Shown here: one piece after another, positions 16,641 to 64,000 of the stretch | How the letters are laid out: every line of letters begins with the position of its first letter | Position numbering within the stretch: the stretch's first letter is position 1 | Source of the DNA: Sphingobacteriaceae bacterium | GTDB lineage: Bacteria > Bacteroidota > Bacteroidia > UBA7662 | DNA: 64,000 nucleotides | Assembly (NCBI GenBank): GCA_030682795.1 | Contig: JAUXNJ010000010.1 | Location: 62,001 to 126,000, forward strand | Reading direction: 5' to 3' | Position numbers and translations under genes: made by a program | Notes under the pieces: generated by a model | What the model saw: the letters and a program-made list of their open reading frames with translations, nothing else | The model's database searches: none | Told to the model about the DNA's origin: nothing

Positions 16641-16670
16641 AAAAGATGTGCCACAAGCACGTCTTTTTTT
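16641..16670 (+). terminator. Terminator of the DUF6089-uppS-bamA-ompH operon
   Basis: AAAAGATGTGC and GCACGTCTTTT form an 11-bp stem with one G-T pair around a short loop, followed by a T-run. An in-frame upstream start for the next gene would fall inside this hairpin, which argues against it. Confidence 0.85.
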
Positions 16671-16730
16671 GTTATTCAAACTTTTTGTTGGTTTATGCGC
16701 ATCTTTTGAAGGTAGAATGCCCCTGCTATC

Positions 16731-16761
16731 TTGTCAAATTGCATATAAATCGTTTACTTTG
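16731..16761 (+). promoter_or_regulatory. Likely promoter of the PorE-like gene
   Basis: TTACTTTG (16754-16761; one mismatch to TAnnTTTG) has a TTG (16731-16733) 20 bp upstream. The predicted start, near 16768, fits the ATG at 16789. Confidence 0.5.
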
Positions 16762-16788
16762 GTATGTATGAATATTAACTGCTCAAGC

Positions 16789-27844: not shown

Positions 27845-28018
27845 CTTTGGATTGGTTGAAATGTAACTCCAATAATAGTAAAATTTCACTAAATCTGATG
27901 TTGCACCATTGAAAAATTGCGGCTAAAATGGGTTGCCGGGTAGATTTTTCGAAAAGCAACCCGCATGGCGTTGATATTGTTTAGCTTTGTAGAAAGCCCT
28001 TCAGCGGCACCCCGCATC

Positions 28019-43523: not shown

Positions 43524-43553
43524 GCCCTTCAGCCCAGTCGAAGGGCGGTCTAC
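43524..43553 (-). repeat. Inverted copy of the repeat unit at the end of the motor cluster
   Basis: The reverse complement reads AGACCGCCCTTCGACTGGGC, the same sequence as the forward unit at about 43314-43337. With the forward copies it would form an inverted pair 200 bp apart. It reaches the stop codon of the 262-residue gene. Confidence 0.7.
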
Positions 43554-44338
43554 ACCGCCGCCGTAAGGCGGATTTTTTGCTCAGTAAAGAACCAATGAAA
43601 GGCCAAACCTTCGTTGTAGCGAAACAAAGCCGCGCTGAGCTGCTCAGCAAATTTGGTCATGGTTTGTAGCACCAATTGTCCATATTCCTGCTGTTCGGCG
43701 CCCTGCATGCTGAATTGTTGCAGCGCAGTTAAACTCTGTACCATGAGCAACGCATTGGCACTGTCGAGCAGCTGCCGGGCTTCCCAGCTTACTACTTTGT
43801 GCCGACTGAACTGCTGCAGCAGGTTTTTGAGATGTTCTTGTGTTTCTTGGATGAGATGCAAATTGACTTTCAAAGTCTTAAACAAATGTTCAAAGCCTTC
43901 CCTCTTGGTTTCGGCGGGTAAACGTTTGCATAAGCGCTGACAGGCCAGAATTACCGGCTCAGACATCAATTGCTGCCACAATTCAGGAATCAAAGGATTG
44001 CGAATCTGAGGCAATTTGGGCTTGAAAATGGCCTGTAATAGACCATTCATAGCTACCGCTGGGGCCGCATTCGGTGCATATAACAGGCGGTCTTCTTCCA
44101 GGATTACCAAATTACTGGCATTCAAAACCCCCGTGCTCACCAATTGCAGTTTACGCTCACTGCCCAGTCCTACTAAATCGGCAATATCGATGAGGTACAG
44201 GGCATGGCCACTCACCATCACATCGCCTGGCTCATAGGCTATCAACTGCAACTGCTCGCCGAAAACCGACTGTAGTTCGGTTGCCCAGCGCTTGCTGTTG
44301 CCAATCAAGGCGATGCTATGTGTCAGAACGGCTTCCAT
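43550..44338 (-). CDS. Unknown protein, last gene of the motor/pilus operon
   Basis: 262 residues from the ATG at 44338, one base after the motB stop codon. No signal peptide or TM. The N-terminal 100 residues look like an alpha/beta fold (THSIALIGNSKRWATELQSV, LYLIDIADLVGLGS, LVILEEDRLLY), somewhat like a receiver domain but without the acidic pocket; residues 110-260 are helical (HLIQETQEHLKNLLQQFSRH, LVLQTMTKFAEQLSAALFRY). It was not recognised. Being cytosolic and next to the stator genes, a regulator or rotor-interacting protein is a guess only. Confidence 0.75.
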   Translation of the reverse strand: MEAVLTHSIALIGNSKRWATELQSVFGEQLQLIAYEPGDVMVSGHALYLIDIADLVGLGSERKLQLVSTGVLNASNLVILEEDRLLYAPNAAPAVAMNGLLQAIFKPKLPQIRNPLIPELWQQLMSEPVILACQRLCKRLPAETKREGFEHLFKTLKVNLHLIQETQEHLKNLLQQFSRHKVVSWEARQLLDSANALLMVQSLTALQQFSMQGAEQQEYGQLVLQTMTKFAEQLSAALFRYNEGLAFHWFFTEQKIRLTAAV

Positions 44339-44339
44339 C

Positions 44340-45044
44340 TCAGTTGTAATACAGGCGGATGACAATGCGTCGGTTTAAATTTTGGTTCTCAGGTATGTAA
44401 TTGCCCGCGGCGTCCTTCTCTTCCACATCGGGAAAAGTATCGGCATAGCCCGAGGCTTTGAGCTTGGTAGCAGGCACCCCGGCCTCTAAAAACGAACGCA
44501 CAATGCCAGCGGCACGGGCGGCCGAAAGTTGCCAGTTATCGGTAAATTTGACGGTACGGATGGGCGCGCTGTCGGTATGCCCCTCCACATCGAGCTGAAA
44601 ATCCTGGCGCTCCAAAGTTGCCAGTCGCGCCACTACCCGCTCAATGATGGCCCGCCCTTCGGGCAAAAGCTCGGCGCTTCCGCTGGCGTACAGACTGCTG
44701 CCACTGAATTTCATGCGGATTTCGTAGGCTCCGCGATCGAGTCGCATTACCCCAGAGGCCAACTCTTCGGCCATGCTCACTTTCAGGTCTTCTTCGAGGT
44801 ATTCAATTGGGAAAAAGACAGGCTGGGCAGGATTGTCAAATTTTTCCTCCGTATCCACCGCATCGGGCGGCAAAGACCCCATCATGATGGCAATGTCCTG
44901 ATCGGCCATACTCGCCAAAATGATAAAAAAGGCCAGCAGGATCGTCATGGTATCCATAAAAGTGGTTTGCCACTCCGAACCCTCTGAAGAATTTTCCTCA
45001 GAATCGTCGCTGCTCGCTTTTTTCGGTAGTCTTAGTGTGCTCAT
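44340..45044 (-). CDS. motB: MotB-type stator protein with OmpA peptidoglycan-binding domain
   Basis: 234 residues. Cytoplasmic N-terminus, one TM helix (residues about 29-46) that has the proton-channel Asp at position 31 (TFMDTMTILLAFF), then a periplasmic linker and a C-terminal OmpA/MotB domain with LDVEGHTDSAPI and NWQLSAARAAGIV, the peptidoglycan-binding helix pattern NxxLSxxRAxxV. All features needed for a proton-driven stator are present. It overlaps motA by one base. TolR/ExbD lack the OmpA domain, so the MotB label is preferred. Zorya's ZorB is an alternative relative but has no flagellar rotor partner. Confidence 0.87.
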   Translation of the reverse strand: MSTLRLPKKASSDDSEENSSEGSEWQTTFMDTMTILLAFFIILASMADQDIAIMMGSLPPDAVDTEEKFDNPAQPVFFPIEYLEEDLKVSMAEELASGVMRLDRGAYEIRMKFSGSSLYASGSAELLPEGRAIIERVVARLATLERQDFQLDVEGHTDSAPIRTVKFTDNWQLSAARAAGIVRSFLEAGVPATKLKASGYADTFPDVEEKDAAGNYIPENQNLNRRIVIRLYYN

Positions 45045-45841
45045 TAATTCGACATGCTTGAAACGCCTTCGCGGGCTTGCAACATCGACGACAATTGGTC
45101 GATGATGTAAAGCTCAGGACGGCCTTCCATGGTGAGTAATACAGCTTCTAGTTCTATTTCGCGCTTCACTTCATCGTGTTGCACGGTTAGGGTGAGTTTT
45201 TTGCCAATCGGCTGCCACAAAAACTGGGTAAAGAGCAAACCGTAAAAGGTAGTCATGAGGGCCAAAGCCAATCCGTTGGCCAAGCCACTTGCATTTTCAA
45301 AATTGCTAAGCATCACAATTAACCCCATCAGGGTACCTAACATGCCGTAGGCGGGAGAGGCAGTTGCCAATACGCCAAACACCTTTACCGGAGTCATTTC
45401 GGCTTGTTTCATGGTGTGTATTTTGTGGGTGCCCAGCACTCGAATTTCATCGATGCCGTAATTGGTCGACAATAAATCGGCGATGTACAAACGAAAGCCC
45501 TTGGAGCCGCCCTCCATCATTTTGGCGATGGTGGCCTGCTTGTTAATGCGCAGCTCACGCACCATGGCCATCACATTTTCAATGAGCTCTTCTTCTTCCG
45601 CCAATTTGCTTTTGAGCGAAAGGGTAGGCTTAAATTCCAACATGGCCTTGTTTACCGCTGTAGCGGGAAAGGAAGAGTAGGCCTGAAAAAAGCTACCTCC
45701 TAAAATCACCATCATGCTGGGAATGTTAAGTAAGCCTTGGATGAATTCGATGCGATAATACCCAAAAGAATCTAGTGCCCCAATCATGAAAAATATCATG
45801 GTGAGGGTCATGCCTATATAACTCGATAAACTTCTTTTCAT
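45044..45841 (-). CDS. motA: MotA-type stator protein
   Basis: 265 residues with four TM helices: about 8-25 (MTLTMIFFMIGAL), 40-57, 155-180 (TASPAYGMLGTLMGLIVML) and 190-212. Pro163 and Pro211 stand at the places of the two conserved prolines of E. coli MotA. The cytoplasmic loop between TM2 and TM3 is large and charged (residues 60-150), as needed for contact with FliG. ASPAYGMLGTLMG is a MotA signature, while TolQ/ExbB have a different pattern. It overlaps motB by 1 base and starts 15 bp after the TPR lipoprotein. Confidence 0.9.
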   Translation of the reverse strand: MKRSLSSYIGMTLTMIFFMIGALDSFGYYRIEFIQGLLNIPSMMVILGGSFFQAYSSFPATAVNKAMLEFKPTLSLKSKLAEEEELIENVMAMVRELRINKQATIAKMMEGGSKGFRLYIADLLSTNYGIDEIRVLGTHKIHTMKQAEMTPVKVFGVLATASPAYGMLGTLMGLIVMLSNFENASGLANGLALALMTTFYGLLFTQFLWQPIGKKLTLTVQHDEVKREIELEAVLLTMEGRPELYIIDQLSSMLQAREGVSSMSN

Positions 45842-45856
45842 TTGTTGCGCTTGTCT

Positions 45857-46357
45857 TTATTTGCTTTTGGGTGCTTTTGGTTTTGGCGTAGGAGTGGTGC
45901 CGCCCCGCTGCGGTAGTTCGATGGCCCGTTCATCAAAGCGGGGGTCTAACCGCCGGGCCTCGAGCCAACAGCTGTCGGCCGAGGCCGAGCGCCCCTGTAC
46001 CTCGTAAACGCTGCCGAGCAACATGAGGGCATCGGCGGTAGGGTACCATTTGAGCGTTTGCTGGAGCAGCTTTTCGGCTTCGGTGTAGCGACCGTCGTAG
46101 GCGGCTTGCTGTGCCCTTACCATGTTGTTGATGATGAGGTTGGTTAAAAACATATACTGCTCGGCTTTCAACTTCTTGACATCTTCGGTCAAGGAATCGG
46201 GCTTGGCCTGTTGTGGAATCGAATCCTTCTTGGCCTCCTCTTTCAAGTTTTCCTTTCGGTCTTTGCCCGCCGTGCGAATGCGCATGCCTTTGCGGTTGCA
46301 GCTCTCGAAGATGCCCGCCAAAACGGCCAAAATCAATATCAATTTGAGATAGCGCAT
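45857..46357 (-). CDS. TPR lipoprotein of the motor cluster
   Basis: 166 residues. Lipoprotein-like signal with Cys 20 in IFESC, a charged linker (residues 25-65), then a TPR-like module (AAYDGRYTEAEKLLQQTL, YEVQGRSASADSCWLEARRL) and a Pro/Lys-rich tail. The module is visibly related to two repeats in the C-terminus of the usher, so it probably contacts the same partner. Located in the periplasm, perhaps bridging stator/ring and outer membrane. 8 bp downstream of the FliF-FliG fusion. Confidence 0.78.
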   Translation of the reverse strand: MRYLKLILILAVLAGIFESCNRKGMRIRTAGKDRKENLKEEAKKDSIPQQAKPDSLTEDVKKLKAEQYMFLTNLIINNMVRAQQAAYDGRYTEAEKLLQQTLKWYPTADALMLLGSVYEVQGRSASADSCWLEARRLDPRFDERAIELPQRGGTTPTPKPKAPKSK

Positions 46358-46365
46358 GCGATATA

Positions 46366-48399
46366 TTAACTGGCCACTTCAAGGGCTGGGGTGTTTTGTT
46401 TGCGTTGACGCACACGGGACAAAAATTCACGCCGCTCTTTTTCGGTTTTGCTGGGGTTGATGTTGCCCTGTCCCAACAAATCTTTGATAAGCAATTGCTC
46501 CCTGGCAGCCCGGAAGGGCAATAAGCGTTCTTGCAAGGCTGTATCGCCAACGATGAGCGCCGCCACACTGTCGCTGTCGAGCCCACCCATGGCTTGCTGC
46601 AACACTTCGTCGGCAATTTCGGGGATGTCGCTCCACAGGGTGATGTGCTCGCGCACATAGGCGAACAACTCGCGGTTGCTATCACGCAGCTTGTCGAGCA
46701 TCTCCTCTTGCTGACTGATGCTTTGTTGCTCGATGGTGGCCAGCACCTGCTTGAAGGCTTCCACGTTTTTGCCCTTGCTCTCGCGAATTTCTTTGAGTTT
46801 TTTGAAGAGGTTGGTGCTCAGCTCGGCATATTCGTCGAAACGAATGGCGGCCAAAGAGGGGTAAGACGACAGGATGTCGGAGGCTTTTTCTACCCCAAAC
46901 ATATTCATGAGCACACTCTTGCGGGCGGCCGATAAACCTTCTAACACCATCAAGCAGTTGATGGCTGGCTCCTCTTCCAACAAGGTTACAATTTCGTCGT
47001 CTTTGAGGTAGATCACGAATGGGAAATTACCAAACTGCCGCTGGTTGCGCATGGCCAATACCAATTCGTCGAGGGCACGCTTTTGGGCGGCACTGTCGAG
47101 GTGCTCAGGACTCCACCTGCGCCAGGCCATGTCGACCGCATGTGCGGTTTTGGGCTCCAGCAACTCGGTAAGCATATCGAGGAAGTGGTTGCCGTAAGGG
47201 TACAGCAACATCACCATTTTTTGGATGCCGTTGGCGCCCTGCTCGCGCGACCAACGCTCAAAGGTAAAGGCCAAATTGGTACGGTCGTTAATCAACCAGT
47301 CCATCAACGGATCACTCGCCCGCAAATCGGCCTGCTGCTGGTCCTGATGCATCACCATTTCGGTTTGCATTTGGATAGGCGCCATGCCTTGCATCATCTG
47401 TCCGTTCATTTGCCCGTTGTAGCCCGCGCCTTCGCCCATGCCTGAACCCATACTTTCGCTGCTTTTGTTGCCAGCAACTGCTGCTGCCAAGGCTTCAGCT
47501 CCTTTTTTCTGCCGCCATACCAAGCCAATGAAGATGAGCAAACCTACTAAGCCTAAGCCAATGCCGAGGATCATGCTCAGGTTGTTGCCTAAATCGTTGA
47601 TCATGCTCATCATGGCACCCTGACTCTCGGGGTTCTGTTCTAAGCGTGCGTTCACGGTAACGGAGTTGGTACCAGGCGTTTTATCTTCCTTGGGGAAGTT
47701 GGTAGTGGTAAGCACAATGTTGTCGCCCCTGCGTGCATCTAAACGCAGCGTATTGCTGATGAGGTTGCGGTAAAATTCGGCATTGCTCGGACTAACAGAG
47801 GAATCTACTGCCAAAAACACCCGGATGCGATCGATGCTCGGACCGTTGTTTACATTGCCTCCCATGGCACCCATGCCACCACCTCCACCCGCAGATGGAT
47901 TGTTGGAAGGCGCCACATCGGCTTCTTGGTCGTTGGCATCAACCGTTACTGGGGCCCTTAAACGTGAGCTGAAGAAGGGTAAGGCAGGTAGCATCTCAAG
48001 GGTTTTGTCTTCCTCGGTAAAGTCGTTGTTTGATGGGGTGCCTTTTACAGTGGCATCGATGTTGGCTTTGCCGCGACCGCTGCCGCCAGTACTCCCAACT
48101 GGCTGTGCATTGGTAACTCTGCCGGTAACTTCTACGCTCAGGTGAAAGAGGGTAGGACTCAGGTAACGACCCAACAAGCCCTGGAGCTGGTTGGAGATTA
48201 CAGACTCGTAGCTGAACCGCTCGTAGGCGCTCAGGGGCCGGGAACTGGCGGTGGCTACCGCGGCCGATTCGTCGGCGGAGCTGGTATTCGGAGCTCCATC
48301 CTGAGCCGCCACCGTGGGAATCCACAATGCGCCCAGCAGGAGCGAGCTCAATACGAGCCGCCGCCAGCTTTTAGTTAAGGGAGTATTTCTTTTGTCCAT
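46366..48399 (-). CDS. FliF-like/FliG-like fusion protein (membrane ring plus rotor)
   Basis: 677 residues. After a signal or anchor helix (about 15-32), residues 57-95 and 188-236 resemble the third ring-building motif and collar of FliF: FSYESVISNQLQGLLG, and IRVFLAVDSS with DARRGDNIVL (the RGD-V step of the family), separated by a Gly-rich insertion (96-187). A TM helix follows (273-295), then a Gly/Met-rich linker (300-360), and from about 460 to 665 the FliG middle and C-terminal domains: LKDDEIVTLLEEEP, YVREHITLWSDIPEIADEVL, and GGLDSDSVAALIVGDTALQE; the charged residues R583, D591, D597 and E598 lie on the torque-helix equivalent. FliF's first two ring motifs are absent. FliF and FliG are normally separate proteins; here they are one. 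Overlaps the usher stop by 29 bp. Confidence 0.82.
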   Translation of the reverse strand: MDKRNTPLTKSWRRLVLSSLLLGALWIPTVAAQDGAPNTSSADESAAVATASSRPLSAYERFSYESVISNQLQGLLGRYLSPTLFHLSVEVTGRVTNAQPVGSTGGSGRGKANIDATVKGTPSNNDFTEEDKTLEMLPALPFFSSRLRAPVTVDANDQEADVAPSNNPSAGGGGGMGAMGGNVNNGPSIDRIRVFLAVDSSVSPSNAEFYRNLISNTLRLDARRGDNIVLTTTNFPKEDKTPGTNSVTVNARLEQNPESQGAMMSMINDLGNNLSMILGIGLGLVGLLIFIGLVWRQKKGAEALAAAVAGNKSSESMGSGMGEGAGYNGQMNGQMMQGMAPIQMQTEMVMHQDQQQADLRASDPLMDWLINDRTNLAFTFERWSREQGANGIQKMVMLLYPYGNHFLDMLTELLEPKTAHAVDMAWRRWSPEHLDSAAQKRALDELVLAMRNQRQFGNFPFVIYLKDDEIVTLLEEEPAINCLMVLEGLSAARKSVLMNMFGVEKASDILSSYPSLAAIRFDEYAELSTNLFKKLKEIRESKGKNVEAFKQVLATIEQQSISQQEEMLDKLRDSNRELFAYVREHITLWSDIPEIADEVLQQAMGGLDSDSVAALIVGDTALQERLLPFRAAREQLLIKDLLGQGNINPSKTEKERREFLSRVRQRKQNTPALEVAS

Positions 48400-51300
48400 T
48401 CGTTGAGGTCCTAGCTACAGGTTTGATGAGTCTATCGAGTATTTGTGTTTCTGGTAGGGCAATGAGTGGATTGCGCTCCCGGGCTTCTGCCCAAATGCGC
48501 CAGGCCTCTTCTTGCCTACCGGTGATGTATAAAATCGAACCTTTCAGCGCCAGGGCATGATCGGTTACAAAAATGCTGAGGGAGGTGTCGATCATGGCGT
48601 CGGCTTCTACATAGCGCCGGCGGTAGAACAACTCTTGGGCCTGAACAAAGGCCGAAACTGCGGCATTGAGCGCGCCACCCAGCTCTGCTTCAAAGTTTTC
48701 CATGAGTTCGAGCGAGAAGCTGTACTCAATGGTGTCGAAGGCTGGTGGTGGAATTACCGGTACATTGCGGTTGGCCAACAAATCGCTGTTTTGAAGCGGC
48801 TTGAAGCCTACCTGGTTGGTATCGGGTACTTCTATAAAGGGATTGCGGTAGCGGGCTTCGCTCCACAAATCACGGGCGGTTTTTTTGTCGCCGAGCAAAT
48901 AGGTAATCGAGCCTTTGAGCGCCAAGCCAAAATCGGTAGGGAAGCCCGTGAGTGAGCTATCTACCATGGCCAGGGCATTGCTGTAGTTGGCGCGGTAAAA
49001 GTGCTCCTGTGCTTCGGTGAAGCTGGTAACGGTTTGTTTAAGGCGCTCACCGAGGAGGTATTCGAGTTGGGCGAGGGTCAATGGCTCGTCCTCTTTTGGC
49101 TTGGTGGTATCGGCTGGTGTAGGTATCAAGCGAATTTCCAAGGTATCAATCCAGTGTCCATCTGGTAAAGGCAAGATGGTGAATTTGAGGGTATCAGGGC
49201 GCTGCACCACATTCATGAATTTGAGCTGCATGGAGTCAACCAATAGGGTATAATTGCCAGGGATAAGACCGTGCGCGTAAAAACTGCCATCAGCATAGGT
49301 CCGAATGGTGGTTGCTCCTTCATGATCACCATTGCGAGCTAACTTTAAGCGTAAACCAGGCTGTGGGTCTAACATACCTGCTCCCCGATCGCGATACACC
49401 ATGCCTTCAATGGTTCCGGTACGATACAAAGGAATATCAATTAGTTTGAATCGGTTTGGGTCGGCCACGAAGGAGAATTTTTCAACCAGTGGAGCAAGTG
49501 TTGCATCTGGGAGTGCACTTTGGTCAACGGTTAATCGGTAGGTCCAGTAGCTTTGTAGTTGGGTGATGCGCAGGAGGCCGTCTTTGCCTTGCAACATGGT
49601 GGCTGATTGGTCTAGACGAACAGCTCGGGCAGGTACAATTTCCTCGCCTTTATCGAACTTACCATTGGCGTTGTCATCTATAAACATTCGGACAGTTACA
49701 CCTGCACGACCTACTTGATCTCGATTGGTGGCGAGGATCATACCATTCCGCAAGTCTGCCCCAAAAGAGCCGCTGAAGTTTTGTGTAAAATTAGGTTCGG
49801 CATAGGGGCCCTTTTGGCGAACGGATGTCTGTGTGCTGCTTCTGAACGCATTAAAGTCATAAAGAAGTGCAACTTGGATTAGATTGGCCTTGTTTGCAAA
49901 ATCACGATCAAAACCAAGTGTCAAGCGGCCTTTTTTAAATACGGTTTGTGAAAATTGAAAACTACCAAGGGCTGTTGCGTCTAGTTGTTTCATGTCGTGA
50001 CGTAATTGTACCCTAAAGAACATACCACGGACGAAAACCGGAACACCTGGTGTCCTTGGAATCGTGTAGGTGAATGCGCCTGTAATCAGCCTTTGTGGAT
50101 TGATTACGCGGTTTGGCCTAATCAATAACTCCTCTCTGTAGTTTAGTCGAGTAACTATTGGTCCAAAGCGCGTGTTAAGGTCAAAATTCATTCTTCTATC
50201 CTCACCTGTATTGTACCAAAGTTGTTCAATCCCTGCCCTAAAGCCAGAAACGCGTCCAAATATGTTGAACGGTACATAATAATTTGCTGATGCTTCTCTT
50301 GAAGCTCTATTAGTTGTGAACTCAGGGTTGAATGAAACGTTCTGAAAGTCTGAAAACTGAACATTTAGTGATGTGTTGTTAGCGTAAAACACACTAGCTG
50401 TAGCTCGAACAAAAGTATTTGGTAACAAATCGATGTTAAATAAATATTGGTCAAATAAACGTATAGAGGCACTTCCATACGGGGTATATTGCACCCCTAG
50501 GCTATCAAACCGCCTATCGATTCCGGCCCTTAAGGTTATGTTGTTAGTTAATCCGTATGAGAAGCTGCCATGTCCTATAATATCGGAGCTAACGGTGTCT
50601 CTGAATATATCTTCTTGGTAACCAGCTTGTAAGGAGTAATTAAACATGCCTCTTGGCACAAAAGTAAATGGTATTTGCAATTGGCGGTCTTCCATTATTA
50701 CTTCGCCTTGAGGGGTATAAATCCTTATCCCAATACGAATTGTTCCATAGGTTAGCGGAGTTGTAAATCGGTAATAACCGAGTTCATCGGCACGAGTAAA
50801 ATCTACCAGTTGATTGCCTATGAGAAGTTCCACTTCAGAGTCAGGAACCGTAAAGCCTTCAACTGCAAATACATCAAGTACCCTTCTAGGAACGATTGGG
50901 GTGTTAGAAATTGACAACCCACGAACGCTGCCACCGTAGGGGCCTAAAACGCCAATTTGCCCTGCTGTGATATCACTGATAATGGGATTTCGTAAAGCAT
51001 CTAAACCGCCTTTGAAAACATATCTCCAACGCAATCCGTTAAACGAAAAATCACTAAAATCCTTGTTTTGGTAGCCGCTCAAATTTCCTTGAATATCCCC
51101 TCCTAAAAGTTCCATTCCGCCAATTAGGTTATAATTGAGTTGAGAATATCCTGGGGAGCTATTTATTCCAACGTTATAATCGAGCATACCCGGTGCAAAC
51201 AAGGCTCTACGTCGAGGGTGCGACATTGGAAATTCTTTTAATATGTTTTCAGGAGCTTCATTTTTTATTCGTTGGCGCACGCTTTGTCTTTTGAGTTTTT

Positions 51301-51763
51301 CTTCAACTGGTGTGAGCCGTTCTGACTTTAAACTCAACATAAGGGCATAGGCATTTACTGTGAAATCAAGTCCAAAAATATCTTTGAAAAGATCGGGCGA
51401 TAAGTATAAATCTGTTTCTCCAAGAAAAAACTGATCTGCCTTTAAAGTCAGCTTTTCTCCTTTTCGAATAAATACAAATTTGACAGGATCAATTTCCCAG
51501 CGATCAGCCTGGCTAGGATAGGTGCCTTTTAGTCCGAAGCGACTCTCGTTTCTTTCAAAAGGTATCATAAGTAAATTCAAGATTTCTCCTGCTGCAATTA
51601 AAGGCTGTTCGCCTCTAAAAGCACATGTCACGTATACTTGCCCAATTGCAGGGTAGCCAAATGTTAAAGTAACCTCATCCACCTCCTGTGCCCGCACCAC
51701 GGACAGGCCCAGCAATAACTGCAGGAATACAGAGAGGGTTATCAGGTTAACACGTGGTGTCAT
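48371..51763 (-). CDS. Outer-membrane usher-like protein with C-terminal TPR-like modules
   Basis: 1130 residues. Signal peptide (ends VVRA), a periplasmic N-domain of about 150 residues (TFGYPAIGQVYVTCAFR), the barrel start (LDYNVGINSSPGYSQLNYNL), a plug-like Ig insertion near 293-365 (EGFTVPDSEVELLIGNQLV, GIRIYTPQGEVI), then many barrel strands (FSYGLTNNITLRAGIDRRF) to about 690, and a region with FIDDNANGKFDKGEE and TIEGMVYRDRGAGML, as in alternative ushers. From about 915 two related TPR-like modules follow (FYRANYSNALAMVDSSL, and FYRRRYVEADAMIDTSL). In a classical usher the C-terminus is in the periplasm. Paired with a PapD-like chaperone next door. It would secrete and assemble the surface fibre. 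Confidence 0.78.
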   Translation of the reverse strand: MTPRVNLITLSVFLQLLLGLSVVRAQEVDEVTLTFGYPAIGQVYVTCAFRGEQPLIAAGEILNLLMIPFERNESRFGLKGTYPSQADRWEIDPVKFVFIRKGEKLTLKADQFFLGETDLYLSPDLFKDIFGLDFTVNAYALMLSLKSERLTPVEEKLKRQSVRQRIKNEAPENILKEFPMSHPRRRALFAPGMLDYNVGINSSPGYSQLNYNLIGGMELLGGDIQGNLSGYQNKDFSDFSFNGLRWRYVFKGGLDALRNPIISDITAGQIGVLGPYGGSVRGLSISNTPIVPRRVLDVFAVEGFTVPDSEVELLIGNQLVDFTRADELGYYRFTTPLTYGTIRIGIRIYTPQGEVIMEDRQLQIPFTFVPRGMFNYSLQAGYQEDIFRDTVSSDIIGHGSFSYGLTNNITLRAGIDRRFDSLGVQYTPYGSASIRLFDQYLFNIDLLPNTFVRATASVFYANNTSLNVQFSDFQNVSFNPEFTTNRASREASANYYVPFNIFGRVSGFRAGIEQLWYNTGEDRRMNFDLNTRFGPIVTRLNYREELLIRPNRVINPQRLITGAFTYTIPRTPGVPVFVRGMFFRVQLRHDMKQLDATALGSFQFSQTVFKKGRLTLGFDRDFANKANLIQVALLYDFNAFRSSTQTSVRQKGPYAEPNFTQNFSGSFGADLRNGMILATNRDQVGRAGVTVRMFIDDNANGKFDKGEEIVPARAVRLDQSATMLQGKDGLLRITQLQSYWTYRLTVDQSALPDATLAPLVEKFSFVADPNRFKLIDIPLYRTGTIEGMVYRDRGAGMLDPQPGLRLKLARNGDHEGATTIRTYADGSFYAHGLIPGNYTLLVDSMQLKFMNVVQRPDTLKFTILPLPDGHWIDTLEIRLIPTPADTTKPKEDEPLTLAQLEYLLGERLKQTVTSFTEAQEHFYRANYSNALAMVDSSLTGFPTDFGLALKGSITYLLGDKKTARDLWSEARYRNPFIEVPDTNQVGFKPLQNSDLLANRNVPVIPPPAFDTIEYSFSLELMENFEAELGGALNAAVSAFVQAQELFYRRRYVEADAMIDTSLSIFVTDHALALKGSILYITGRQEEAWRIWAEARERNPLIALPETQILDRLIKPVARTSTNGQKKYSLN

Positions 51764-51791
51764 TGTGGTAAGAGGTCTTTTTGATTATTTT

Positions 51792-52616
51792 TTAATCAAT
51801 GATTAGTGTTGTTTTATAATTATAGGGTTTAGCTTGTACTAGGTCGTCTGATGGAATATCACTTCTGTTTGTCTCGAATTCATATTCTAAAGCATATCTG
51901 CCAGGCTTGAGTGATTCTTTCGAGAAAAAACTAAATCTTCGTTTTCCACTAAAATAAAGGGCAGCAGGTTGGGTTGCCTCACCGATAACGATACCAGATG
52001 GATTTTTTAAGGTAATTTTTACTTTCCCTAGATAAGGGGAGTTTCCTGTTGTTTTATAATGGGTATCAAGCACGATTAGGTTACTATCCACTTTGTGGGT
52101 GACTTTTTCAATGCTTACACCTGTTGTTACTTCTCCATTCTTGAAAAATGCAACAATAACTTGTTCAAAGCGCAGATTAATCCGGGTCGAAATAGCACCT
52201 TCTGACGCCGTTTCACCTATATCAGCTACTTGGCCAGAACTACCAACTTTAATTCTTGTAAAGTAGGTTCCTGGATTTGTATTTTTAGGTATGCGGGCTT
52301 GCAATCTTACAATCTGTTGTTGGTTAGGTGGTAAAATGAATGAGCGCGGAAACGCTTTCATCATATTATTTAATCCCCAAATCTTGGCATTTACACTATC
52401 ATCATAAATCATGACCAATACACCGTTGTCATCTTGAGCAGAATAACCAAACTGAAAGTTTATAGTTATTTCTTGGGGAACAGCTGAGTTATTGGTTACG
52501 TACAAATTCCCAATTCCATTTTTATCTAAATAAACGGCTGTGGGAGCAAGCGAAAGTTGTGCTTTCACTCCATAAAATGGAAGCGTGAATAGCATCAACA
52601 ATAGTAACTTTTTCAT
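51792..52616 (-). CDS. Pilus-type periplasmic chaperone (PapD-like)
   Basis: 274 residues. Signal peptide (ends GVKAQ). Two Ig-like parts: the first has LSLAPTAVYLDKNGIGNLYV, FPRSFILPPNQQQIVRL and PGTYFTRIKVGSS, the pattern of a chaperone G1 and F1 edge strand; the second begins near LIVLDTHYKTTGNSPYLGKV and ends with a Gly/Tyr-rich strand (PGRYALEYEF). Periplasmic chaperones cap pilin subunits by donor-strand complementation. It is 28 bp ahead of the usher and 65 bp after the pilin gene. Subclass (archaic/alternative) not assigned. Confidence 0.75.
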   Translation of the reverse strand: MKKLLLLMLFTLPFYGVKAQLSLAPTAVYLDKNGIGNLYVTNNSAVPQEITINFQFGYSAQDDNGVLVMIYDDSVNAKIWGLNNMMKAFPRSFILPPNQQQIVRLQARIPKNTNPGTYFTRIKVGSSGQVADIGETASEGAISTRINLRFEQVIVAFFKNGEVTTGVSIEKVTHKVDSNLIVLDTHYKTTGNSPYLGKVKITLKNPSGIVIGEATQPAALYFSGKRRFSFFSKESLKPGRYALEYEFETNRSDIPSDDLVQAKPYNYKTTLIID

Positions 52617-52681
52617 GTGCAGAGAGGTTTAAGTTAAGCTCGGGGAATATTCCCCGAGCTTTCATGTTGAAATAAATTGGC

Positions 52682-53314
52682 TTAGATACCGTAGATGATG
52701 TTAAAAGCCATGCCTCCAATAAAGGTTCCTTGGGGGCCGTTTGATGGTATAACTGATCGAGTCCCTCTAAGGTATAAGTAGCCTCCAATGAACAATGTTG
52801 TTCTTTGATCTACACCAGAGGTTGTAATTAATCCTACTGGGCCTTCACCATTTCCAGATGGTCCTGTGACATCTGTAATTGGATTAGCAATTGCTTGTGC
52901 AGAAAGTAGAACTGAGTTAGTTCTATTCGCAGTATTTGCTTCTTGCTCACCATGGATAACTGAGATCACCGGTACAAATGAAATTGATGTGTCGTTTGTT
53001 GTTCTAGTTAAAACAACTGTAGAGTCAAACGTGATACGGATAGGCTCTTCTTGTGAAGCGTCAACAACCAGCCTGCCCACGGCGGCACTAAAACCAATAT
53101 TAGTTGAAGATGCCTGTGACTGTGGATTCAAAAAGGTTTGAGTTCCCGCAGCGACAGTTCCAAACCGGATGGAGTCATTCTGAGTTATTGTAATTTGCTT
53201 TAAAATTCTGGCATTAGCACCAACAGAACCTTGCGTACCTAATTGTGCCTTTGCTGTTGTGCCTACACCTACAAATAGGGCGGCAACGAGCAGTGATTTG
53301 AAAATTGTTTTCAT
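52682..53314 (-). CDS. DUF4402-type secreted pilin-like protein (likely major subunit)
   Basis: 210 residues. Signal peptide (ends TTAKAQ), then ARILKQITITQNDSIRFGTV, the DUF4402 hallmark, and a C-terminal LFIGGYLYLRGTRS and GTFIGGMAFNIIY, the closing strand pattern. Pilin-like proteins of this family complete their Ig fold by donor strand exchange in other chaperone-usher loci (family knowledge). It is next to the chaperone. The long A-rich leader suggests strong expression and hence the main subunit. Confidence 0.72.
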   Translation of the reverse strand: MKTIFKSLLVAALFVGVGTTAKAQLGTQGSVGANARILKQITITQNDSIRFGTVAAGTQTFLNPQSQASSTNIGFSAAVGRLVVDASQEEPIRITFDSTVVLTRTTNDTSISFVPVISVIHGEQEANTANRTNSVLLSAQAIANPITDVTGPSGNGEGPVGLITTSGVDQRTTLFIGGYLYLRGTRSVIPSNGPQGTFIGGMAFNIIYGI

Positions 53315-53533
53315 CTTTTTTTTGTTAAATGGTTAAATTATTTTGAAACTTATTGGCTTTGCTACATTTCCTAGGTTTGGTAGCGCTGCCAGGTTTCGGG
53401 CAATGGCTTCTGTTGAGTGGGGTTTATTGTAGCGAACCGGGGCGCTGCTGTTTGAGGGCGGAAGGTCTTACCTTCCGGAACCTGCTTACGAGCTAGTGAC
53501 TTTCTGCATGGAGGTTTTAGGTCGTTTTGTTGT
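53315..53533 (-). promoter_or_regulatory. 219-bp non-coding region with probable start site of the pilin gene
   Basis: The region has no ORF. Near the pilin gene on the minus strand TAAGTTTC is one base off the TAnnTTTG consensus, followed by an A-rich leader (AACCATTTAACAAAAAAAAG) before ATG. Farther upstream a CGGAAGGT-CTT-ACCTTCCG hairpin (53459-53479) without a T-run may attenuate or stabilise transcripts from the upstream genes. Confidence 0.5.
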
Positions 53534-54025
53534 TTATAAATATATTATCGTTAAAGTACCACTGGCGTTCGCAGGCATGCCCAGCCAAGAGCTGAGGGTA
53601 GTAAGATCGCCAGGTATGTTTTTAATCATGATTGGTTCATTATACATTCGTAATTCGTTCATTCCAGAATTAAGCTGCATAGCTGCCGCAAAATTAGTAG
53701 TACCATCGTTGAGGTAAAGCATAGGTTTAAAACCACCTGGTCTGCGCACATTAGGTGTAAATTGAACGGCGAAGTTGATGTTTTCTTTGGCCCGTAGTTC
53801 TATCCAACGCGTTCCTGGGTTTAGGCTACTGCGGTACCCAAAGCCCCCCTTTTCTTTAACAGGTGGTTCTAAAATTTGCGGCGGTACAGGGTTAGGATTT
53901 AATTCTACTCCTGCAGGGATATTCAATGTAAGGCGAATAAATTGGGCTTGCCCAACAAAGCAGCAAAGCATAAGGACTACAAAGAAAGTCCCAGAAAGCA
54001 ATATGGCTTTAAAAGTTGTTTTCAT
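53534..54025 (-). CDS. Small secreted pilin-like protein of the cluster
   Basis: 163 residues. Signal peptide (ends CCFVGQAQ) and a beta-rich body (RLTLNIPAGVELNPNPVPPQ, RWIELRAKENINFAVQFTP) ending SGTLTIIYL, the C-terminal strand style of pilin-like subunits. It overlaps the preceding gene by 17 bp. No family was recognised; a minor or tip subunit is inferred from the place. Confidence 0.65.
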   Translation of the reverse strand: MKTTFKAILLSGTFFVVLMLCCFVGQAQFIRLTLNIPAGVELNPNPVPPQILEPPVKEKGGFGYRSSLNPGTRWIELRAKENINFAVQFTPNVRRPGGFKPMLYLNDGTTNFAAAMQLNSGMNELRMYNEPIMIKNIPGDLTTLSSWLGMPANASGTLTIIYL

Positions 54026-54620
54026 TGTAGTTTATAAATAAATTGATTTCACCAGTGTAATTGCCTGATCGGATGTTGTTTGGAATTGGCCCTAAGGAGC
54101 CGTAGATATAAAAGTATGCCTTTCCACGTTGACGTATAAATCCTTGGTGATCGGGCGTAGGCGGAGGTAAGGGGGGGCCTCCGGCGGTCCTTCTGCGTAC
54201 TGGTAAGGTTACGGTTCGGAAGGCAGATGGAACTTGGACTGCAGCTAAACGTCGATCTATATCGCTTAATTCGCCAGTATTGTTATAAGCGAAATTAAGG
54301 TTGAAAGGCACTGTGATACCTGTATCAATCCCCAAATATAAGCCAGGTGTCCAGCTGAACTCTGCTGTTAAATCATACTCAATCGGGGCATCAATTTCAA
54401 TCACGATGGTTGGATTATCATTGATGCCTATGACTACAGGCGTTGGGTCTCCGACCACGATCACACGCTGCTGATCATTAAAGTTGAGCCCTAAAGGATT
54501 ATTGACGATGGTAAGCGTTATGGCCTCATCTTTTACATGCGCGCCAAAATTAATACGCTGCCCCAGAACTGATGCATTCAGGGAAAGAGAGAGGAGAGCT
54601 ATGGCAGTAAGTTTTTTCAT
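54009..54620 (-). CDS. Small secreted pilin-like protein of the cluster (2)
   Basis: 203 residues. Signal peptide (ends NASVLGQ), then INFGAHVKDEAITLTIV and a C-terminal strand pattern IRSGNYTGEINLFINYN, like DUF4402 and other pilin subunits (GxYxGxxxxxVxY). There is a Pro-rich loop near residue 150. Starts at the stop codon of the upstream gene with one base shared. Confidence 0.65.
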   Translation of the reverse strand: MKKLTAIALLSLSLNASVLGQRINFGAHVKDEAITLTIVNNPLGLNFNDQQRVIVVGDPTPVVIGINDNPTIVIEIDAPIEYDLTAEFSWTPGLYLGIDTGITVPFNLNFAYNNTGELSDIDRRLAAVQVPSAFRTVTLPVRRRTAGGPPLPPPTPDHQGFIRQRGKAYFYIYGSLGPIPNNIRSGNYTGEINLFINYNENNF

Positions 54621-55138
54621 CAGTTCGCCTCCATTTCAATGATGAATTCTGAAATGTACCCACCTGGAGTAGCACGAGCTACATCTATCACTGCTCCTAA
54701 CCAAATGTAGTAATAGCCTTCCTTGCTTAAACGCACATTGGCTTCGCCAATATCAAGTAGCACACTGGCTGCTTGATTGTCGCTTTCAAAGCCGCTTATA
54801 CGATAATTGGCTCTTACAATACCTCCACTCCCTCCTGTTTCTACCAATGTTTCTTGGGATAGATAAGTGATTCGTACCATGGCACCTGCTCTCCCTGCAA
54901 TGCGCATTAAACCCGCATATGGACTACTAATTGGCGATACTGTTATGGTTCCATCTATGATAGCAGGTGCATTTAAATCTACATCTCTCATAGTTGAGAG
55001 CCCAAGGTTATCAATAATGGTAGCTGTTGCTGAGACACGGACAGATCTCGTATGTACGACCTGCGACTGCTCTTGTGCATTACTGTACCTAGCTTCCCCA
55101 AGCACCAACAAAATCAATATGGCCAACCACTTCCTCAT
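54620..55138 (-). CDS. Small secreted DUF4402-like pilin protein of the cluster (3)
   Basis: 172 residues from the ATG at 55138, which overlaps the giant gene stop (ATGA). A longer start would read through the giant gene's C-terminus. Signal peptide (MRKWLAILILLVLGEARYSNA), then VRVSATATIIDNLGL, APAIIDGTITVSP and a C-terminal TPGGYISEFIIEMEAN: the DUF4402-like pattern. Its fusion to the adhesin gene by overlap indicates coordinated production of fibre and adhesin. Confidence 0.68.
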   Translation of the reverse strand: MRKWLAILILLVLGEARYSNAQEQSQVVHTRSVRVSATATIIDNLGLSTMRDVDLNAPAIIDGTITVSPISSPYAGLMRIAGRAGAMVRITYLSQETLVETGGSGGIVRANYRISGFESDNQAASVLLDIGEANVRLSKEGYYYIWLGAVIDVARATPGGYISEFIIEMEAN

Positions 55139-61100: not shown

Positions 61101-64000
61101 TTTCCAGGTCTTTACAAACAGCGGTAGCATTAATGGTAGGGTAGTGCGGACCTGCATATTCAATGACAGCGCGCGTAGTATCGCGAGGAATGTGGCCGTT
61201 GTGCCAGTTAGAGGCCGTAAACCAGTCGGTACTTGTGCCTCCCAACCAATAGCCATTGGTAATGCCATCGATGGCTACCAAGCGACCCGTATTATTGGTG
61301 AAGAAAGTAGTATTGATGTTGGTGGCTCCTGAACCGGTATAACCCCACGAGCCAGATACCTGCCGTAAACTGTTAAAAGAAAGGTAAAAACAGCCCGAAA
61401 TAAAGCCGTTACAGTTGAAAGTACCACCTGTATTGATCGATACCACACCCGGAAAATCGAGTATAGCCCCCGCACGCAGCGTGCCACCACTGATGATGGT
61501 CAAGCCCGAATAATCGATGGTGCCTGCTAAAGTTAAAACACCCGTACCAACTTTTTGAATACCACCCGTTCCTACACCTGTAATGGTGCCTGAATAGGAG
61601 GTGTTCGTATTGTCGCTGCCAATTACCAGGGTGGCAGTTCCCAACAATACATTACCGCCTGCTCCGCCGCCACCTGCCAAACTACCAATGCTGTTGCTAA
61701 AGCCCTGAATGTCGAGCGTGGCCCCAGCCGTATTGCCAATGGTAAAGGCCGAGGAGGCACTGATGGCGGTAGGACTTACAGCTTTGAGCACTCCCGCATT
61801 GATGTTGGTGCTGCCAGTATAGGTGTTGTTGCCGCCTAATCGCTGGGTATAGGCACCGGCTTTAACTACCGATAATACGCCCGTGCCATTAATGATGCGT
61901 CCGTCGTAGGTAATGTCGCCACTTCCACGGCTAAAGGTAATGCTTGCAGGACTTGCGCTGTTGTTGCGCACAAAGGCGTTGGTGTCGGTACCAATGATGC
62001 CAGCAGTGGTAATGTTAAAGCCGTTTAAATTGAGGGTAGAAGTGTTGTTAACCAAACTTCCACTTGGAATGGCGCCTGCATTGCCAATGGTGAGGGTGCC
62101 CTGGTTGATGATGGTATTGCCGGTATAGCTGTTCGCGGCGTTGAGGGTGGTGGTGCCAGCTCCTGTTTGGGTAAGTGTGCCGGTTCCTAAGCTAATAACG
62201 CTATTGACCACTATTACGCGGTTGGTACCGCCCGTTGGCTCCAAAGTTAAGTCTGCATTGGTTCCAGTAATGGCGCCATTTAATGTGAATGCATTGGTGG
62301 AGTTCGCGTTTCGCCGAATGCTACCGCTACCAATGATTTGAAAAGGACGGTTGGTGGCGCGAGCAGTTGTACTGCTGTAATTTAATATACCACCGTTTTC
62401 TAGGGTAATGGTAGCCGTAGTGCTGCCTGTACCAATGCTACTGTTGGTGCCACTGTTGGCAATTACGTTCGATACCGTTAAAATACCTCCACCTATGTAA
62501 ACTTGTCCGCTGAAAGTACTCGCTGCGTTTGAAAGTACAAATTCAGCACTTCCTAATTTGCGTAAATGTACCGTGCCACTTCCATTTGATATAACGGCAG
62601 CCAAAGTGCGGTTGGTGGTATGGTCTACAGTTAAGGTGCAGCTGCCGGCTTGACTGCTGGTAATGGTACTGCCTGTGTTCGAGCCTGCAATGCCATTGAA
62701 GGTTTGATTTTGTCCGTATAAATCCAGCACAATGCCAGCGAAGTTGCCAAAATTCATGACCGTAGCTGGGTCTAAGGTATTTTCAACACCAAGGATAACG
62801 GTGCCTAAGTTGAAGTTAAATTGTCCGTTAGTAGGTCTGTTGCCCTGCATGAACAAGGTGCCACTGCCCTCTTTTGCAAAAGTAGCTGAAGGGCCGTGTT
62901 CGCAGTCGCCTGCAAAACGAAAATGTCCGCTTCCCCTAAGCGTAATGCTTCGGTTGGTGCCGTTGTTACTGATGATAGAAGATGGCAAGGCGGTAAAAAG
63001 CAAACTATCAGCGGTGGCGTTAAATTCTACGTTTCCAGAAAGTGAAACAACTCCTGCTAAAACATTATTTCCATTGATGTTGGCTATGGCTCCGCTAGTC
63101 GCAGGAACTCCCGTGCCCGTAGCGGTAATGTCTTGTACAATGGTAAGGTTACCTGAACTTGGTGCCAATTGTAAACTGGCATTGCTAATGGTAATGGCAT
63201 TGTTGCTGCCCAAAGCACCATTGGCCGTTACCCGCAAATTTCCACCATTAACTAGTACGTTACCGGTAAAAGAATTGGCTCGTGGTAAAATCCAAGTACC
63301 CGCATCCGATTTGGTAAGGGTGGTGATGCCGTTTCCAGTAAAATCCACAATTTCACCCGAAAAAATATTGTTTCCGGTATTGGTGCCTCGTAAAAACAGG
63401 GTGCTGGTACCTGTATTGGTGGAGAGGAGGTCGCTGGTAAACTCTAATGGCCCTGTACCATTGGAGGTAATATTGGTATTTCCACTGGTACCTGCCAATT
63501 CAATGGCCCGGTCGGTGGTTTGTCCGGTACCCGTATAGGTGAGGTTACCCGTATTGCCGCCAAAGCCAATGCGAATGACGCCATTGGCCGCACTCGAAGG
63601 GGCACCTAGGTTACTGCTGGCAGCAGGGGCGGGACTGCTCACCGAATTGAGTGTGGCAACGCTGAGAACACCATTCTGAATCCATACCTGTCCGGTGAAG
63701 GTGTTATTGCCAGTTAGTGTGAGGGTTCCTGTGCCCGACTTGATCAAGCCTACATCACCGCCTAAATTGGCGCTAACAGTGCCGCCTTGCAAAGCAAAAT
63801 CAACCGTGGAAGACAGAAGCCCTGTACCGATGATGCTACCACTGGTAATGGTTATGAGGCCAACCTCATCGGTAAAGGTGCCTACATTGAGAATGCCGCC
63901 ATTTACGGTAACCGCACCGGTGGCTAAAATGTCGTTGGCACCATACAACAAAGTGCCACCTGTAACCGTGGTGGTACCAGTGAAGGTACAAGGCACATTG
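55135..64000 (-). CDS. Giant repeat-rich T9SS adhesin, 5' end outside the window
   Basis: At least 2955 residues; the frame stays open to the window's right edge. From about 59 kb to the edge it is composed of dozens of autotransporter-associated beta-strand repeats (GTLTLTGNNTFTGQVWIQNG, TGNTIINQGTLTIGNAG). Then follow a Big_1-like Ig domain (about 58.3-58.6 kb, SSVVFSVDTAIANGVDSVF), a YDG/MBG-type module (57.7-57.9 kb, FDKLYDGTTNITASGV), two W-x-x-x-x-NW-P modules near 57 and 61.2 kb, and a C-terminal Por sorting domain (PYLYPPMPNPFEQ, MYGRVVSRQPQQL). It should be exported by T9SS and act as an adhesin, perhaps a filament. It overlaps the next gene by 4 bp. Confidence 0.88.
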   Translation of the reverse strand, partial: NVPCTFTGTTTVTGGTLLYGANDILATGAVTVNGGILNVGTFTDEVGLITITSGSIIGTGLLSSTVDFALQGGTVSANLGGDVGLIKSGTGTLTLTGNNTFTGQVWIQNGVLSVATLNSVSSPAPAASSNLGAPSSAANGVIRIGFGGNTGNLTYTGTGQTTDRAIELAGTSGNTNITSNGTGPLEFTSDLLSTNTGTSTLFLRGTNTGNNIFSGEIVDFTGNGITTLTKSDAGTWILPRANSFTGNVLVNGGNLRVTANGALGSNNAITISNASLQLAPSSGNLTIVQDITATGTGVPATSGAIANINGNNVLAGVVSLSGNVEFNATADSLLFTALPSSIISNNGTNRSITLRGSGHFRFAGDCEHGPSATFAKEGSGTLFMQGNRPTNGQFNFNLGTVILGVENTLDPATVMNFGNFAGIVLDLYGQNQTFNGIAGSNTGSTITSSQAGSCTLTVDHTTNRTLAAVISNGSGTVHLRKLGSAEFVLSNAASTFSGQVYIGGGILTVSNVIANSGTNSSIGTGSTTATITLENGGILNYSSTTARATNRPFQIIGSGSIRRNANSTNAFTLNGAITGTNADLTLEPTGGTNRVIVVNSVISLGTGTLTQTGAGTTTLNAANSYTGNTIINQGTLTIGNAGAIPSGSLVNNTSTLNLNGFNITTAGIIGTDTNAFVRNNSASPASITFSRGSGDITYDGRIINGTGVLSVVKAGAYTQRLGGNNTYTGSTNINAGVLKAVSPTAISASSAFTIGNTAGATLDIQGFSNSIGSLAGGGGAGGNVLLGTATLVIGSDNTNTSYSGTITGVGTGGIQKVGTGVLTLAGTIDYSGLTIISGGTLRAGAILDFPGVVSINTGGTFNCNGFISGCFYLSFNSLRQVSGSWGYTGSGATNINTTFFTNNTGRLVAIDGITNGYWLGGTSTDWFTASNWHNGHIPRDTTRAVIEYAGPHYPTINATAVCKDLEIFPAATVTMSGSSVIDVHGDWLNYGSFVPATSTVNFRKASGVAQVITRPSVGPFANLQYFGTGTLRLSSNEPRPFEMTGALLTNTGNTIDLNGKGLICAGLGGPGLLTNSQPFDVIIAINGTTDRAFSGIIQNGSGTVGLTKTGSMTQVLEGNNTFTGGITVNGGTLHARNSTTAMGNGSVTLAGTTPVLRLSNTAGVGLNFAQAVTVNANAEIISDNNTTGAGATHTLGALTLNATTLTISGGANVNSGTAGVTFGAVTHSVSPTYTVNNPSGGGLTQLSLGALTGGTLPVVMNGNGTIVQTGAFNIQPTLATQSAITYSGTGTLTLSQNNTMTQRLTLSSGLVVATANGNALGSGTTVYMSGGVLNLSNNTPIAFNNAVIATVNPSFISDRTAAGAGVTHTLGNYSALSPVDSMRVLVGSNVTSGIAGVAFGTLTHPTTTNINVDTLALLQTTGFAGTSRAIRKYGGGEFSITGNSTRTSVTDMYAGSIRLGNANSMGTSATADFNFYGGQLILAADANTTFNNTDVFLRAPNLEIVVDRANAAATSQTHSINILNWPIVDNTYVLNVSRGANITGAAIGSLGIASLLQNSANRTYNYNTSLNARVEWPNYSPTGANITINHRGPGQLGQAAGSSLVTIASTTLNQLGSGSIEFSGTNTLVGPVNIDSGEVRVATNPQTFRVLNINNLGRFNPGTQTAFALSLFFDGVRQSPRIYGSTSSTTAQFQDNNRFTAGSTGRLGLKGYLEFLTQPIGGRSSLLFASPPVVQLRDSTGILINNAQNTSPVRAFLSLTDATNRGRLRGDSVELMVNDRATFDSLRIGGRADSVYRIAFIVDSLVTPALESDNISVTPGPIEPSLSSVVFSVDTAIANGVDSVFVTVVLSDIDTNFITNQLVSLTQDSGKVSTIVAQNFGFSNSFGVAQFAVSSTVADSINYFAVTQLGADDPFQGTARVYFIPGPPFRILVNNPPYSTAVNTIFFPPIEVSIFDSNDNRMWTDTNTVTLSLLPFGVINGTFQVTETSGVAIFPIVSIPNGGTYFMRAAVGSIADTSLAFDIIENYYNGGKGDGFDANNPRVTNLDGKFVLQLDGSFVAFDKLYDGTTNITASGVSANNITLVGLDTSFPNVVLDTVFYGFLSPSVGENKRVVISEAELSGTDTAEYIFSLFGAPFGTAKILGQSYFGGAGRGDVRASSDTVFLDGAKAVPSKLVFDTQPGDQIANEPFSLSARILSTDNRLVPFGAEQAILDFYTNPSGASLNGGNQPFTGGVAVFNNLSINREGTGYELSLEPGGSITHTLDTAVSAPFDVYVVYDGGQGRGDSSIGLISRGLDGFLYDVWIGGASGNPRNWYTAANWNTGLTPRDTSRILIPLRPNQPSLNRSVTPAENSFVLANGGKLILTNGSVLTIDSSTAGAPGPLFKLNNGSETETRGTNSKIVVEPYARYVNLSSSLPRLESRQRLSGVKGWRQLGSPVKTTYADFLDSLETQGYPGAKFDSLQPNVLWFAETDTGTTLQSWRKPANASDSTVQGRGHFVYVFDGAGYPARVTGGGNYADTLPVVLTSNGFEPNLTTGDFVFPELTFTPRALSTQADTAGGNTFFLDENVADAGWNLLANPTPSTLNWDASSGAWTANNLDNTFYIWDPSFGGVGGYRYWNGTVGNIDTSLSDGNIAPYQAFWVHANAANPSLAFNNNAKSDDAARYYSRRQAPPSISLSLQGAGMEANSYVSFTQQGITGPDVYDAYQLESYNDSWLMLYTQSSTRHKKPLVINHLPDNFSNELAIPLHLAAAKDRQPISGNYALFWNLAQNWPANWTIALMDHHNQKVVPMLERSSYQFNYQAPANPAFRTSQEDGDFRSPKAVLHGAKPDIAENPVFRQQREPQRPFTIVIIPNHDGSELVYRPDHPYLYPPMPNPFEQETTLAFYLPEQTMAMLEVSDMYGRVVSRQPQQLYTAGTHELVWNAPQATPGTYVIRLVTADFVSTQKAVKIK

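Follow-up and report, generated by a model that had tools for sequence, protein, structure and literature searches.

The DNA analysed here, referred to as the window, is a stretch of 64,000 nt (positions 62001–126000 of host contig 41) from a genome of 3.14 Mb with a completeness score of 100%. Between 43550 and 64000, the minus strand of the window carries an operon of twelve genes, encoding in order a T9SS adhesin, three secreted proteins, a DUF4402-like pilin, a putative chaperone, an usher, a FliF-FliG fusion (FliFG), a TPR lipoprotein, MotA, MotB and the protein P0001 (Table 1). Spacing between the genes ranges from overlaps of 29 bp to gaps of 65 bp (−29 to +65 bp), the sole wide gap being one of 219 bp between Sec163 and the pilin gene. 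All twelve genes are thus present in the order described by an initial annotation made from the sequence alone, which had also pointed out that no flagellar rod, hook or filament gene lies in the cluster. Our searches found none there, and found no FliM/FliN (FliMN_C), FliP or second FliG in the whole host genome.

Table 1. Features of the minus-strand operon, in window coordinates
Feature	Position	Strand	Evidence
Giant T9SS-sorted surface protein, C-terminal 2954 residues	55135..64000	-	PATR 1.4e-28; TIGR04183 3.7e-6
Sec172, secreted pilin-like protein	54620..55138	-	Homologues adjoin usher in both classes
Sec203, secreted pilin-like protein	54009..54620	-	Position kept in most usher loci
Sec163, secreted protein, conserved less	53534..54025	-	phmmer to relatives
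DUF4402-like pilin (P0008)	52682..53314	-	f90 positional homologue DUF4402 5.8e-7
PapD-like periplasmic chaperone, weakly supported	51792..52616	-	PapD_N in family members; position directly upstream of usher
Outer-membrane usher, 1130 aa, TPR C-terminal extension	48371..51763	-	AF2 + Foldseek FimD 3rfz; TPR_2
FliF(RBM3)-FliG fusion rotor, 677 aa	46366..48399	-	Pfam, profile, hhalign, AF2, Foldseek
TPR lipoprotein	45857..46357	-	Lipobox Cys20; phmmer to usher TPR
MotA/PomA-type stator subunit	45044..45841	-	PomA structure E 2e-18
MotB/PomB-type stator subunit, plug + OmpA-like domain	44340..45044	-	MotB_plug, OmpA; ion-binding Asp
P0001, 262 aa	43550..44338	-	No family above cut-off

The better start of P0001 is the ATG at 44338, and the gene is translationally adjacent to MotB; the protein had no homologue in related loci, and probably lies outside the core of the system. 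In the remainder of the window (1–43550), the large ORFs that were sampled encode mostly ordinary proteins (a BamA-like Omp85 protein, PheT, RNase Y, an ABC-F protein and a DEAD helicase); a T9SS-sorted M4/M36-like peptidase lies at 24860–27889, and an OmpA/PD40 protein at 16648–18762.

The rotor protein

The 677 aa protein is a minimal rotor, consisting of the RBM3/collar part of FliF, a transmembrane (TM) helix and a complete FliG. A signal/TM segment (residues 15–33) is followed by a periplasmic part (approximately 34–256) holding RBM3 (58–233) with a disordered collar loop inside it (100–184), then by a TM helix (approximately 276–294) and the cytoplasmic FliG (346–669). FliG_C was matched at 6.4e-7, above the curated Pfam cut-off, and among 32 FliFG homologues Pfam recognized FliG_C in 30, and FliG_M and FliG_N in 26 each. 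A profile of the family matched solved FliG structures (E 4e-41), and hhalign aligned FliFG with E. coli FliG (98.8%, 287 columns).

The FliF part of the protein alone fell under the Pfam threshold (E 0.09). Its identity follows from YscJ_FliF_C matches in the family (7/32 homologues, best 1e-5), from the RGD motif of FliF RBM3, which is invariant in the family and aligns with the RGD of E. coli FliF, and from the fold. In the AlphaFold2 model (mean pLDDT 71), the signal/TM helix is followed by an RBM3 fold of the alpha-beta-beta-alpha-beta kind, a TM helix and the FliG helices, and a disordered insertion of 85 residues occupies the site of the FliF beta-collar; Foldseek matched the model to full-length FliG (E 7e-9), to FliF S-ring/RBM3 structures (probability 1.0) and to MotAB-bound FliG. 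On the FliF side, both the model and Foldseek gave matches to RBM3/S-ring only, RBM1 and RBM2 being absent; in flagella, the RBM2 ring touches the FliP/FliQ export gate (PMC11481574). The proposed FliF/FliG fusion therefore holds, and HMM and fold assignments did not place this protein or the MotA/B pair in an unrelated family, a placement that the initial annotation had named as refuting its proposal.

At the level of single motifs, the FliM-binding EHPQR motif is degraded in FliFG. The equivalent of FliG R281 is basic in 43/44 sequences, and that of D289 is acidic in approximately two-thirds and aligned as Leu in the 677 aa protein.

The stator

MotA and MotB constitute a genuine PomAB-type stator, with an ion-binding Asp, a plug and a peptidoglycan-binding domain. 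MotA matched MotA_ExbB (1.6e-15) and NCBIfam PomA (1.9e-24), and PomA is also its closest structure; MotB matched MotB_plug (1e-8) and OmpA (3e-12). The equivalents of MotA P173, P222 and T209 are kept in all 36 MotA proteins of these systems, and all 39 MotB homologues, a set that includes flagellar-type MotB of the same genomes, have the ion-binding Asp that corresponds to D32. The MotA charge positions, as aligned, fall in a poorly aligning region.

Three threonines occur in all Na+-driven stators, and two of them are alanine in H+-driven ones (PMC10374538). Because all three Na+-selectivity threonines are present in 36/36 MotA sequences, the stator is probably Na+-driven, and the proton drive assumed at the outset is probably wrong. 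Two other identities for the stator were rejected: no Gld model matched, the proteins matching the MotA/PomA and MotB families, and MotA had no ZorA match, the match of MotB to ZorB being best via the shared OmpA-like domain. Zorya models had no match among the other operon proteins tested.

The usher, the TPR domains and the chaperone

On the outer-membrane side, the partner of the motor is a true usher, extended by a periplasmic TPR tail. The window usher had no Pfam Usher match of its own, only 1/19 usher family members had one, and hhalign of the usher against FimD was uninformative; its identity, correctly called from the start, was settled by fold. Foldseek matched the AlphaFold2 model (pLDDT 79) to FimD bound to FimC:FimH (3rfz; E 1.2e-27) and also to PapC, and the match extends over full FimD/PapC, consistent with an N-domain, a plugged barrel of the 24-strand type and C-domains. 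The C-terminal extension comprises two TPR blocks (residues 897–973 and 1018–1113), and TPR_2 was found in 15/19 family members. The TPR lipoprotein is homologous to this extension (phmmer 1e-7 to 1e-13; 24/67 residues identical to usher TPR-B), and the Cys20 of its lipobox is nearly invariant.

The chaperone gene is always directly upstream of the usher gene. PapD_N was detected in 3/20 family members (best 6.7e-4, a weak match), and hhalign against FimC gave no significant match; position and PapD_N matches together tentatively suggest a PapD-like protein.

The adhesin and the pilin-like proteins

The adhesin ORF extends past the window, to 3677 aa in full (contig 41, 117135–128168), and begins with a signal peptide, making the giant T9SS adhesin first proposed larger still. 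It contains PATR beta-helix repeats and a C-terminal T9SS sorting domain (TIGR04183) over the cut-off, and SprA of the T9SS is encoded in the host genome, as expected for a T9SS cargo protein. In related loci, the place upstream of Sec172 is taken by another protein with a T9SS tail, which contains Invasin_D3. In two genera, the adhesin gene is preceded by genes for three secreted proteins of 620–730 aa (L010:10604–16539; L012:13835–19751), with FGE-sulfatase/SUMF1-like domains in 3/3 of those in G000 and in the one tested (1/1) in G005, and PKD-like domains in some.

The assignment of the pilin to DUF4402 applies to its relatives, with P0008 itself under the threshold: the f90 positional homologue is over the cut-off, and an f90 homologue of Sec172 also matched DUF4402 (2e-6).

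Conservation and phylogeny

Scans of 84,980 genomes returned no relatives with P0005 alone and seven with a P0005 alignment, all of them MAGs of the window's family. Distant relatives were recovered only by whole-genome profile search, which found the family also in another class of the phylum and in family f97; we take f97 as a third class because it was not among the listed matches of the search of the second class (245 genomes). Among 17 genomes of the window's family, eight genomes of four genera encode FliFG, and its co-occurrence with MotA is complete (both in eight, neither in nine).

The genes for usher, FliFG, TPR lipoprotein, MotA and MotB are contiguous and on one strand in 20/21 related usher loci with enough flanking DNA, and in the window (21/22 with it). 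The contiguous block spans two Bacteroidota classes and several families, and gene order is kept down to approximately 20% rotor protein identity; in the one exception (L013), the MotA-MotB pair is intact on another contig (L123). The neighbourhood whose conservation in other Bacteroidota the initial annotation had put forward as a test is thus shared by relatives. Values of dN/dS in one close pair were 0.02–0.14, indicating purifying selection.

We distinguished three types of locus. Type I has the order (T9SS protein)-pilins-chaperone-usher-FliFG-TPR-MotA-MotB. Type II consists of FliFG, a barrel-like protein of 357–397 aa, TPR, MotA and MotB, in 10/10 loci with enough DNA (L064, L066, L068, L071, L074, L075, L080, L086, L113 and L121), and type III has the order barrel-like protein, TPR, MotA, MotB, FliFG (L081, L083 and L085). 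The 357–397 aa protein of types II and III is secreted, mostly Phe-terminated (hence barrel-like) and without a Pfam family. Relatives without an usher extend to a further class, and to genomes with flagella of their own. Because types II and III contain the same module without an usher, the usher fibre is not the only partner of the motor module.

In the FliG tree, flagellar FliG of the same phylum is separate from the fused FliFG (support 100/99), and type I is one clade holding both classes (99/97). Several f90 genomes contain both type I and type II loci, and some, G495 and G467 among them, have flagellar fliF/fliG loci apart from these; with ordinary flagellar loci alongside, the fused system in f90 is not a flagellar remnant. 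One f90 type I stator was tested and has an extra SPOR peptidoglycan-binding domain, and other f90 stators are equally extended in length. Variants were also seen among the ushers: the type I locus L077 (G484, f88) has two chaperone genes and an usher of 1533 aa, and a related 1391 aa usher without FliF neighbours (L141:7500–11675, G117) has a different C-terminal extension, SPOR-like by eye.

Covariation of the parts

At four usher loci (L090, L114, L116 and L118), the rotor protein is without FliG_C and no MotA/MotB lies alongside, while chaperone, usher and the FliF part are retained. MotAB therefore accompanies 0/4 usher loci without FliG_C versus 20/21 (Fisher 4e-4, not phylogeny-corrected). 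These motor-less loci have either lost the motor or preserve an ancestral state that never had one. Three genomes of the window's class (G117, G235 and G043, the last with a locus pieced together from two contigs) encode related ushers with no FliF or MotAB nearby and no TPR tail; ushers adjoining FliF carry the tail.

Because FliF-less ushers are without the tail and loci without FliG_C are without MotAB, the simplest reading of these patterns would be that the usher TPR tail is tied to the presence of the FliF ring, as FliG_C is to that of the stator. On phylogenetic grounds, the usher TPR tail and FliF may be in contact. Conserved gene order and the joint gain or loss of FliG_C with MotAB, and of the usher TPR tail with FliF, argue against grouping by chance; as a comparative proposal, it is well supported that the operon encodes one machine uniting a flagellar-type motor with a chaperone-usher system.

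Discussion

The product of the operon is probably an ion-driven rotary machine that spans the envelope, is built on a chaperone-usher fibre and moves that fibre once it is assembled. From the parts present, we infer that approximately 30 copies of FliFG would assemble into an inner-membrane ring, and that peptidoglycan-anchored stators would push the FliG edge of this RBM3-only ring, probably on Na+ influx. RBM3/collar and the outer-membrane TPR lipoprotein may engage the usher TPR tail, so that torque would pass to the usher and fibre; the T9SS adhesin may be carried by the fibre or act together with it. Driven in this way, the finished fibre would be rotated or stroked, in surface motility or mechanical adhesion. 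Against this reading, the operon encodes no bearing (a P/L-ring-like part) for an usher-linked rotor, the charges of the FliG torque helix are only partly kept, and in types II and III the motor module has a partner other than the fibre.

A broader proposal, to which we give an even chance, is that this is a new organelle, in which an RBM3-only FliF-FliG ring and PomAB-type stators, probably Na+-driven, spin or stroke an usher fibre through the outer membrane. It would be one branch of a group of non-flagellar Bacteroidota FliFG machines, with the type II and type III branches driving a different outer-membrane protein.

The strongest alternative, which we regard as unlikely, is that the motor energises the usher, acting as an ExbBD/GldLM-like ion-motive-force transducer by which subunits or adhesin would be secreted, assembled, disassembled or released across the outer membrane. 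Such a transducer would have identical parts and envelope topology, GldLM powers the T9SS in Bacteroidota (PMC9389320), and the type II and III clusters, which have no usher, likewise place a protein resembling an outer-membrane barrel beside the motor. However, the four loci that keep chaperone, usher and FliF without FliG_C and MotAB suggest that assembly is presumably motor-independent, and no ExbBD/GldLM transducer includes a full FliG with a conserved stator contact. Ushers are not known to require energy from outside, which also speaks against this alternative. Of the two roles offered in the initial annotation, energising or rotating the fibre, the motor-less loci thus disfavour the first where it means powering assembly, and in our own judgement movement of a finished fibre is clearly the likelier role.

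It is improbable that the FliF/FliG ring is a static scaffold that positions or clusters ushers at the inner membrane, with MotAB, instead of generating torque, acting as a clamp or sensor that is gated by ions and regulated. The motor-less loci keep an RBM3 protein with the usher, which implies a structural role for the ring by itself, and the incomplete conservation of torque-helix charges also fits a scaffold, but FliG_C and MotAB are kept or lost jointly and the channel residues are invariant. Least credible by far are vestigial flagellar genes left by chance beside a fimbrial operon: FliF, FliG, MotA and MotB descend from flagellar proteins, and FliM/FliN, FliP and a second FliG are missing from the host, but conservation of the block across several families and two classes and strong purifying selection with an invariant ion-binding Asp contradict this, as do the clade of FliFG apart from same-phylum flagellar FliG (100/99) and the separate flagellar FliF/FliG loci beside FliFG in f90 genomes.

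If the machine with a moving fibre is real, a conserved combination of MotAB-FliG and usher would be a rotary organelle based on fimbriae instead of flagella. As far as we know, the action of MotAB on FliG has been described only in flagella. Such a machine would show that part of the MS-ring, RBM1/RBM2 with its housing for the export gate, is dispensable once no filament is built. Structural studies would gain from it a minimal FliF-FliG/stator system, and flagella-less Bacteroidota would have in it a candidate mechanism for moving or for adhering mechanically. Rotor proteins are found in 11% of non-motile species, unexplained (PMC12199754), and our results bear on the question raised there of their role in filament-less genomes.

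Comparison with known systems

No prior description of such a system was found in the open-access PMC literature; within that literature, the remark in the initial annotation that no chaperone-usher system with this type of motor had been described stands. The parts of the system are known, and their combination seems to be new.

With the flagellar motor it shares a homologous FliF RBM3, a full FliG and a PomAB-type stator with the same key residues, FliFG forming a separate sister clade of FliG. In contrast to flagella, FliF and FliG are fused, RBM1/RBM2 are missing, FliM/FliN and the export gate are absent from the genome, and the motor is operon-linked to an usher in a cluster without rod, hook or filament genes. 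Chaperone-usher pili (FimCD/PapCD) have the same usher fold and pilin-like subunits, and probably also a counterpart of the adjacent, weakly supported PapD-like chaperone; those classical systems have no ion-driven motor, whereas here the usher has a TPR tail and a rotary motor is co-encoded.

The nearest published precedent is the natural FliF-FliG fusion of Chlamydia, a non-flagellated bacterium for which only FliF, FliL and FlhA are listed (PMC4768692). The chlamydial protein of approximately 330 aa is without an RBM3/SpoIIIAG-like domain and has only a FliG-M-like part (PMC4768692, Bergeron 2016), whereas the fusion described here keeps RBM3 and all of FliG and has lost RBM1/2, the opposite domain loss. 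GldLM (gliding/T9SS) and ExbBD/TolQR are likewise 5:2 motors of the inner membrane that are driven by ions and act on machinery in the outer membrane (PMC9389320), but they are without a FliF/FliG rotor, and the stator here is MotAB/PomAB by sequence. Lastly, the likeness to the ZorAB proteins of Zorya is confined to MotB, which matches ZorB models best through its OmpA-like domain, and does not extend to MotA or the other proteins tested.
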